A DNA stretch of 23,075 nt from a virus: positions 1 through 23,075 of the IMG/VR virus record IMGVR_UViG_3300009187_000078. One strand, written 5' to 3'. A program made the translations under genes and the position numbers. Shown here piece by piece: positions 5,616-7,107 of this stretch; the stretch's first letter is position 1; each line of letters starts with the position of its first letter. Below the pieces are notes generated by a model. That model made no database searches, had not been told where the DNA came from, and saw nothing but the letters and a program-made list of their open reading frames with translations.

Positions 5616-5846
5616 CTGATGCTGACTGCGTACTTGATGGAAAAATTCGGGCCGCGTCTTGGCACTGACGAGCTAGCGCAGGTGCTGGGCATTGCGCCGC
5701 GCACGCTGGAGAACAAGATATATCGGGGCGAAGTGCCGGTGCCGACGTATAAGGACTGCGGCAAAACGTGGGCCGATTGCCGGGATGTGGCCGAGTATCT
5801 GGATGCTTGCAGGGCTAGGGCGAAGGCAGAAGCGATTCAGGCTTAA
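5610..5846 (+). CDS. HTH protein, probable excisionase
   Basis: A 78-residue DNA-binding protein, last gene of the early operon. The middle (LGTDELAQVLGIAPRTLENK, about 17-36) is a MerR/AlpA-like winged helix-turn-helix, followed by a YRGEVPVPTYKDC wing and a short helix. Phage excisionases (recombination directionality factors) have this size and fold. It lies directly before the convergent integrase, with 32 bases of tail-to-tail overlap. Together these make it the likely Xis that, with integrase, bends attL/attR for excision. The sequence also resembles PrtN-type activators, so a transcription role is the main alternative. Confidence 0.65.
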   Translation: MSLMLTAYLMEKFGPRLGTDELAQVLGIAPRTLENKIYRGEVPVPTYKDCGKTWADCRDVAEYLDACRARAKAEAIQA

Positions 5847-6816
5847 GCTGGGTGTAGCGCTTTAGCATTGCCCATGACTTGTGCCCGCTCACCAGCGCCA
5901 CCTGCTCGATGCGCAGGCCGGACTCAAATAACCGGCTGATGCCTTCGTGCCTCAAGTCGTGGAATACCAGGTCTTCGACCTTCGCCACCCTGCAGGCCAG
6001 CAGGAAGTTGTCGCTAATCCATTCCGGCGAGACTTGGAACACGGAATTATCGGAAATTATTTGCCGCTGAATAATCGCAAGCGATTCACCTAAAAGCGGA
6101 ATCCGCTCATCGTTGCCAGACTTTTTGCGCGGGTCTTTGCGATCTCGGATCGTCAGCAGTCGCGCATCGGCATCCACGTCGTCCCACGTCATCCGCACGA
6201 TCTCGCCGCGTCTCATGCAAGTGGCGATGGCAAAGTCGATGATGTCGCGCAGCAATGGCGATGCCGCGGCACGCACTGCGGCTAGCTCATCAGCAGTCGG
6301 CCTGCGCTCGCGTGGCGTGCCAGGCCCAATTAACCCCAGGTGATCCAGCAGCGGCCTGCTTTGCGCCACGATGTCTGGAAAGGTTTCGCCCAGCGCCATC
6401 GCCGAATACTTCAGCACCGTGCCGAGCTTGGATATCTCCATCGAAACCGTGTACGGGCCTGCGCCGCTCTTGCCACGCCGCTGGCAATAGGTCGCCAGTC
6501 GTTGCGGCTTGATGCCGGCCACAACCTCGTCGCCGAGATCGCGCTCCAACCAGCGCAGCATGTAGACCTCGTTGCTCTGCGGATTGATCGGGCGCTGGCC
6601 GGAGTCGCGCAGCTTGATGTACGCCTGAATGGCGTCGCCAACGGTTGCGCCCTTGGCTGATTTCACCGCCGTACCGGACTCAATCGCGGCCTCGGTCTGC
6701 CGTGCCCATCGCTCGGCCTCGGCCTTCGTCTTGAAGGTTTTGGATAGACTGCGGGCACCTGTGCGCCGCACGAATGCGCGAAAAGTGCCTTCCGTTGTCT
6801 TGACGATGGACGCCAC
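5815..6816 (-). CDS. int: Tyrosine-family phage integrase
   Basis: A 333-residue site-specific recombinase inserting the phage into the host chromosome at attB. I chose the GTG at 6816 because GGGAGAG lies 5 bases upstream; the frame stays open to 6864 without a better signal. The N-terminal part (about 1-50: TFRAFVRRTGARSLSKTFKT) is the AP2-like arm-binding domain, then a SAM-like core-binding domain (about 55-150), then the catalytic domain. Catalytic residues are in place: Arg202 (TCMRRGEI), a Lys in the DRKDPRKKSG hairpin, His286 and Arg289 (HDLRH), His312 (SGHKS) and nucleophile Tyr321 (KRYTQL). The gene faces the early operon, unlike lambda. attP should be just behind its start (6829-6965). 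Confidence 0.92.
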   Translation of the reverse strand: MASIVKTTEGTFRAFVRRTGARSLSKTFKTKAEAERWARQTEAAIESGTAVKSAKGATVGDAIQAYIKLRDSGQRPINPQSNEVYMLRWLERDLGDEVVAGIKPQRLATYCQRRGKSGAGPYTVSMEISKLGTVLKYSAMALGETFPDIVAQSRPLLDHLGLIGPGTPRERRPTADELAAVRAAASPLLRDIIDFAIATCMRRGEIVRMTWDDVDADARLLTIRDRKDPRKKSGNDERIPLLGESLAIIQRQIISDNSVFQVSPEWISDNFLLACRVAKVEDLVFHDLRHEGISRLFESGLRIEQVALVSGHKSWAMLKRYTQLKPESLLPSP

Positions 6817-6828
6817 GCCTACTCTCCC

Positions 6829-6965
6829 GTGTAATTTGCACGCCCCGCCGAGCGATTCGTGCAAATGAGTTGTGTACAGGAGTGTAATTCAGTGCGCGGT
6901 AGTGTGGTTTTGTGCGGGTTTCCCGCTATACTGTAAGCGTTTGCCTCCGTAGCTCAGTGGGAGTC
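6829..6965. other. Probable phage attachment site attP
   Basis: This is the gap between integrase and the end of the late operon. It contains a perfect 9-bp inverted repeat, ATTTGCACG (6834-6842) / CGTGCAAAT (6858-6866), and a direct repeat GTGTAATT (6829-6836 and 6882-6889; 53 bp, about five turns apart). Both are candidates for arm or Xis sites. Next come a hairpin (GCGGG TTT CCCGC, 6914-6926), a TATACT -10 box (6927-6932) and, 10 bases on, GCCTCCGTAGCTCAGTGG (6943-6960). That last string is the acceptor strand, U8-A9, D-stem and D-loop start of a bacterial tRNA. Homology stops near 6963, before the anticodon arm. Tyrosine integrases commonly target tRNA genes; here the phage would carry the 5' end, which is less common than the 3' end. 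The exact core cannot be fixed without attB. Confidence 0.6.
6927..6932 (+). promoter_or_regulatory. TATACT -10 box ahead of tRNA-like 5' end
   Basis: TATACT is a near-consensus -10 element and is preceded directly by a 5-bp hairpin sequence. The best -35 candidates 16-17 bases upstream (TGGTTT / GTGGTT) are poor. The distance to the tRNA-like start (10 bases) is typical of tRNA promoters. It could supply a promoter to the reconstituted tRNA in the lysogen, or drive the small ORF at 7000. Confidence 0.4.
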
Positions 6966-6999
6966 GGGGCAAGCAACCGTGCGGCTTTTGGGGCGACCC

Positions 7000-7107
7000 G
7001 TGCAAAAACCCGAGCAGTTCAAAGACAATCCGAGCTGGCCGTTCGGCCGGATGCGCCCAGTGCGCCGCAAACGCTACCCGGCTGATCTGCCGCCTGCGCC
7101 GTTCTAA
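7000..7107 (+). CDS. Possible 35-aa basic proline-rich protein
   Basis: A short rightward frame: GTG at 7000 with GGGGCGAC just upstream, or GTG at 6979. The product begins with QKPEQFKDNPSWPFGRM and ends YPADLPPAPF, with a basic centre (RPVRRKRY). Its TAA overlaps by two bases the stop of the convergent gene at 7104-7247. A promoter-like TATACT lies about 70 bases upstream. The composition looks protein-like, but the length is too small to be sure. Any real product would be an orphan gene between attP and the late operon. Confidence 0.3.
   Translation: MQKPEQFKDNPSWPFGRMRPVRRKRYPADLPPAPF

Follow-up and report, generated by a model that had tools for sequence, protein, structure and literature searches.

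Among the known systems closest to the integrase studied here are the dusA-associated integrases, a family described by Farrugia et al. in 2015 (PMC4482086). Elements of this family replace the 5′ end of their target gene, and putative −10 and −35 boxes were found upstream of the gene after insertion. The same study mentions one tRNA-Arg case, in Pseudogulbenkiania ferrooxidans 2002. The pTN3-like integrases of archaea use the 5′ half of a tRNA as attB and the rebuilt tRNA is severed from its own promoter (PMC8371274, PMC5495485). Very few exceptions aside, rebuilt bacterial tRNAs are expressed from their original promoter (PMC8371274); the same review, citing Williams 2002, describes a rebuilt tRNA severed from its promoter as seldom met in bacteria. 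In the tRNA-dependent lysogeny known from mycobacteriophages, the host tRNA is destroyed by integration and its place is taken by one that the phage encodes (PMC10865867).

We have analysed a viral record of 23,075 bases, referred to below as the window. It encodes a P22-type coat protein (PHROG 283) whose best database matches are annotated P22 coat proteins, and the virus is most likely a temperate podovirus. We consider it very likely that positions 6835–7006 form the attP site, that integration through this site rebuilds the 5′ end of tRNA-Arg(CCT) and that the −10 box of the phage then drives the host tRNA. The integrase belongs to the same superclade as the dusA-associated integrases and, as with these, the 5′ end of the target gene is replaced, with putative promoter boxes upstream; the target there is dusA, whereas here it is tRNA-Arg(CCT). 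With the pTN3-like enzymes it shares a tRNA 5′ half as attB and a rebuilt tRNA placed behind element DNA. In the archaeal elements attP is part of int, which integration disrupts, whereas here attP is upstream and int stays intact. Classical bacterial integrases at tRNA 3′ ends are also tyrosine integrases whose tRNA target is restored after insertion, but they carry the 3′ end and the host promoter stays in place; here the reverse holds. The phages with tRNA-dependent lysogeny likewise have a common core overlapping a tRNA gene, but they encode a spare tRNA and do not rebuild the target (PMC10865867), which is rebuilt here.

Results

The integrase was recognised by Pfam (Phage_integrase, PF00589, E 8.9e-19) and by PHROG. 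R203, K227, H286, R289, H312 and Y321 are invariant in an alignment of the window with six relatives, which together with the Pfam match supplies the catalytic R...K...HxxR...H...Y pattern of a tyrosine recombinase. The best of the annotated phages among the matches listed has an integrase only 40% identical, and blastn gave no match. The features of the locus are collected in Table 1.

Table 1. Features of the attachment region and loci of the integrated relatives
Feature	Position	Strand	Basis or conservation
Tyrosine integrase, 333 aa, GTG start, related to dusA-associated integrases	5815..6816	−	Pfam, PHROG, alignment, tree
Left arm-type repeat TTTGCAC	6835..6841	+	Conserved in L003–L005
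Left arm-type repeat, inverted, GTGCAAA	6859..6865	−	Kept here in L004, absent here in L005
Putative −10 box TATACT, reads away from int into the tRNA start	6927..6932	+	Position, register, conservation
attP core, 5′ end (nt 1–19) of tRNA-Arg(CCT)	6943..6960	+	Identical in host genes and attPs of relatives
Second conserved block GTGCGGCTTTT (ATGCGG in relatives)	6979..6989	+	Alignment
Right arm-type repeat GTGCAAA	7000..7006	−	Conserved in L003–L005; GTATCAC in L002, L006, L007
Integrated loci L184/L164 (G776), L205 (G789), L087, L148, L246, L287, L289, L293			

The core, GCCTCCGTAGCTCAGTGG, lies on the plus strand (6943–6960), 126 nt upstream of the int start. It is exactly nucleotides 1–19 of Burkholderiales tRNA-Arg(CCT). 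Phage and host cease to be identical at 6960, where the phage continues with GTGGGA and the host with GTGGATAG. An earlier note on this DNA had read the string as the 5′ end of a bacterial tRNA, with homology stopping soon after the D-arm; both points hold and the tRNA can be named. ARAGORN and Rfam detected no complete tRNA in the 23 kb of the window, possibly an incomplete record, so only the tRNA 5′ end is present. The exact 18-mer was not found in 369 genomes sampled at class level; with mismatches allowed, the matches in 56 of these genomes were mostly tRNA-Arg(CCT) genes. A set of 349 genomes came from a single order, that of an Azonexus MAG, which we take to be Burkholderiales in GTDB. 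The search pattern was matched in 25 of the 349, and 23 of these 25 have the exact tRNA 5′ end. All but two of the matched places have the sequence GCCTCCGTAGCTCAGTGGATAG; with few exceptions, those that do are intact tRNA-Arg(CCT) genes. The order-level matches thus identify the attP core as nt 1–19 of tRNA-Arg(CCT). Judged from sequence comparison, a tRNA-like string beside int exceeds what chance would give, since the 18-mer equals the tRNA-Arg(CCT) 5′ end and occupies the same place near int in relatives.

Some other tRNA-Arg(CCT) genes met in the searches have unusual structures. In L057 (positions 1466–1777; G052) two tandem 138-bp repeats lie upstream of the gene, each containing the tRNA leader and a 5′ fragment ending GTGGGG; these are possibly old att scars. 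L070, in which the tRNA is cut after the anticodon, was considered as a lysogen junction and rejected: the tRNA (L070:1501–1805, G548) is split by a group I-type intron of 229 nt according to ARAGORN (Rfam Intron_gpI, 33.8 bits, below the gathering score, E 9e-7). L166, also from G548, has a tRNA-like start split in a similar way.

The close integrase group includes eight further free phages, each of which has the tRNA 5′ end, and of the tRNA only this end, at the same place beside int. The 18 nt are intact in seven and reduced to 14 nt in one (L086), and the flanks have diverged. The same 18-mer adjoins int in L002–L007, whose integrases are 81–88% identical to that of the window, and in L037/L041, where the identity is 51%. 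When the nine attPs are aligned, the 16 columns of TTGCCTCCGTAGCTCA are nearly invariant (one exception, at the first T) and form by far the longest block of this kind.

The arm repeats change as a set across the nine-phage alignment. The earlier note had proposed an inverted pair and a direct repeat as arm sites. The inverted pair is confirmed and is compatible with arm sites. The direct repeat, GTGTAATT, does occur in the window; its conservation among the relatives is incomplete, and its reading as an arm site is not supported. A third copy, GTGCAAA at 7000–7006 to the right of the core, had been missed. Where the integrase N-terminus of a phage differs, TTTGCAC is replaced by GTATCAC or GTAGCAC. 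The phages with TTTGCAC/GTGCAAA arms (window, L004 and L005) have integrases that are 96–98% identical over residues 1–50 and 82–83% identical in the body. Compared with the window, the GTATCAC-arm phages (L002, L006 and L007) are only 60–66% identical at the N-terminus and 85–91% in the body; L003 is intermediate (78% N-terminus, 89% body). Such covariation would be expected of an integrase that recognises the arms with its N-terminus and the shared core with its body. About 18 nt to the right of the core, (A/G)TGCGG is also conserved across the nine-phage group. It possibly begins a short ORF (MRLLGR... or MRLF...), which in the window would start at GTGCGGCTTTT and span 42 aa (6979–7107). 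A host tRNA promoter stranded on this side by integration could read the ORF.

Eight integrated relatives were found, and each has an intact tRNA-Arg(CCT) beside int, on the opposite strand and with its 5′ end facing int. The tRNA starts about 110–190 nt from int and reads away from it, so the tRNA 5′ end and the sequence upstream are prophage DNA, whereas the 3′ half comes from the host. The element has therefore replaced the 5′ end of its target gene together with the region upstream, and the restoration of the tRNA 5′ end by the phage, predicted in the earlier note, fits all eight loci. That note had also held that related prophages integrated elsewhere would refute its reading; these eight all sit at tRNA-Arg(CCT). 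Upstream of the tRNA, G776 and G789 have similar sequences (GTATCAC arms, GAAACCGGGTAGRAT), which are unlike native promoters. G788 is from the same genus as G776 and shares its downstream flank, but has a native-looking promoter upstream of the tRNA. Two of the lysogens, L287 and L293, have a G4·G69 mismatch in the acceptor stem, as expected if a phage 5′ strand has been joined to a foreign 3′ strand. We give this only modest supporting weight, because such mismatches are also seen in viral-contig tRNAs outside lysogens (L294, L283, L285, L291 and L292). The wobble pair T2·G71 of L087 and L289 was rejected as a sign of a chimera, since native genes carry it too. A search for attR in G776, the rest of its genus, G790, G791, G793 and G794 was unsuccessful; the contigs of G776, G789 and G489 break off within the prophage or near it, and IMG/VR provirus records are trimmed.

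Elements of the 3′ type are found at the same gene (the L284 element, and 3′ fragments in G775, G780 and G781); tRNA-Arg(CCT) is attacked from both sides. In L087 the host side past the tRNA 3′ end has GTGATAC repeats and a reading frame resembling an integrase N-terminus (VQYLQRRGDMYYFYMRVP), and this tRNA may be occupied from both ends.

TATACT is separated from GCCTCCGTAGCTCAGTGG by exactly 10 nt, the spacing given in the earlier note, and is the best −10 match within the upstream 110 nt. We scored every hexamer in the 110 nt before the tRNA start at 29 att sites, which include close relatives and so are not all independent. At 19 of the 29, members of the main clade (give or take near-duplicates), the best-scoring −10 match is 9–11 nt before the tRNA. 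L246, of a second group, has a weaker but top-ranked match at 9 nt, L164 and L205 have a match at 11 nt that ranks second, and L148 has a weak −10 only. Six of the 29 (L103, L104, L106, L087, L289 and L287) are without a −10 at 8–12 nt; in L087 and L289 it is found at 18–19 nt. Most of the native host tRNA-Arg(CCT) genes (n = 32) have such a box at 9–12 nt, others at about 17–23 nt. The best reading of the TATACT box would thus be a promoter in native register, consistent with its position, register and conservation, and the promoter for a host tRNA that the earlier note had suggested gains support.

A profile scan of viral contigs, followed by classification of the upstream regions, gave two main kinds of att site in the wider family. 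One is the tRNA-Arg(CCT) 5′ end, in slightly different host versions (GCCTCCG, CCCGCCG, GCCGCCG, CTCCTCG and others), and the second is the dusA 5′ end (the AP[MV][ML]DW region). In a tree of 79 integrases the window groups with the dusA-associated integrases; its own 31-row clade (27 tRNA-Arg, 4 unknown; support 100/100) adjoins the dusA rows and uses tRNA-Arg(CCT) 5′ ends. The dusA rows of this tree were recognised by a dusA 5′ end beside int, and it was built without the sequences of Farrugia et al. Set against the dusA-associated integrases, the tRNA users comprise a large separate phage clade and a second small group, the pair L148 and L246, which falls among the dusA rows with weak placement. 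This distribution suggests that the dusA integrase group repeatedly uses gene 5′ ends and, at least in the sampled tree, has switched between a protein-coding target and a tRNA target. Resemblance to the dusA target was considered as the reason for the choice of tRNA-Arg(CCT); tested against 169 tRNAs, this idea failed. In L062 (468–1576) dusA lies directly upstream of tRNA-Arg(CCT) and divergent from it, so the two targets of the group are neighbours in some hosts.

Discussion

We propose that Int would bind the arm sites on both sides and recombine the core with the identical 18 nt of the host tRNA-Arg(CCT), with the exchange point falling somewhere between about nt 5 and nt 19 of the tRNA. 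One junction would fuse the upstream DNA of the phage and its tRNA 5′ strand to what is left of the host tRNA, so that an intact tRNA-Arg(CCT) results. At the second junction the host promoter and a 5′ stub should face the right arm of the phage. Displacement of the host promoter would explain why the phage carries a −10 box in native register, and this box most likely drives the host tRNA from phage DNA.

It is conceivable, though on balance unlikely, that integration at the 5′ end is real and TATACT instead belongs to the Int/IHF/Xis footprint, the tRNA of the lysogen being transcribed from another start or only poorly expressed. By eye no consensus −35 can be made out and, as noted above, a −10 in register is missing from several att sites. 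Motifs such as GGGAAAAACAGGG recur in left arms of the dusA type, and in a similar form in those of the tRNA type, so conservation of the left arm can have other causes. Against a footprint, the hexamer varies only within the −10 consensus (TATACT, TAGACT, TACACT, TAGAAT, TAGGAT) while its distance to the tRNA start is kept, and native host promoters have the same register.

Two further readings were considered. Most tRNA-targeting phages use the 3′ side, and 3′-type elements do occur at this tRNA, yet an ordinary 3′-end attP, or a captured tRNA fragment unconnected with integration, is highly improbable: the string is the 5′ end (nt 1–19), the 3′ half is absent from the window, and in the integrated relatives the 5′ end of the tRNA is on the int side. 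Extremely improbable is a tRNA-dependent lysogeny of the mycobacteriophage kind, in which the host tRNA would be destroyed and replaced, since the window (which may be incomplete) encodes no replacement tRNA and the tRNA is intact in eight of eight integrated relatives. Rebuilding of the tRNA 5′ end behind a phage-supplied −10 box accordingly remains our preferred reading.

Conclusions

Replacement of a 5′ end and promoter at dusA, one tRNA-Arg case and the archaeal pTN3 precedent are already known. What is new, as far as comparative sequence analysis can indicate, is a clade-wide branch of the dusA-associated integrases at the 5′ end of tRNA-Arg(CCT), with a conserved and apparently element-supplied −10 box. 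A whole clade, with eight integrated relatives, thus runs opposite to the usual bacterial rule and appears to carry a promoter in native register. It offers a natural example, open to testing, in which the transcription of one tRNA is taken over by a mobile element; the att sites could also serve integration vectors for Burkholderiales. It is more speculative, and we think it quite doubtful, that the prophage controls this AGG-decoding host tRNA to the point where the strength of the new promoter and, in some lysogens, a mismatched chimeric acceptor stem alter tRNA-Arg(CCT) supply and the stranded host promoter drives transcription of the phage right arm. If true, the change in tRNA-Arg(CCT) supply would amount to a lysogenic conversion of decoding capacity, at the arginine codon AGG.
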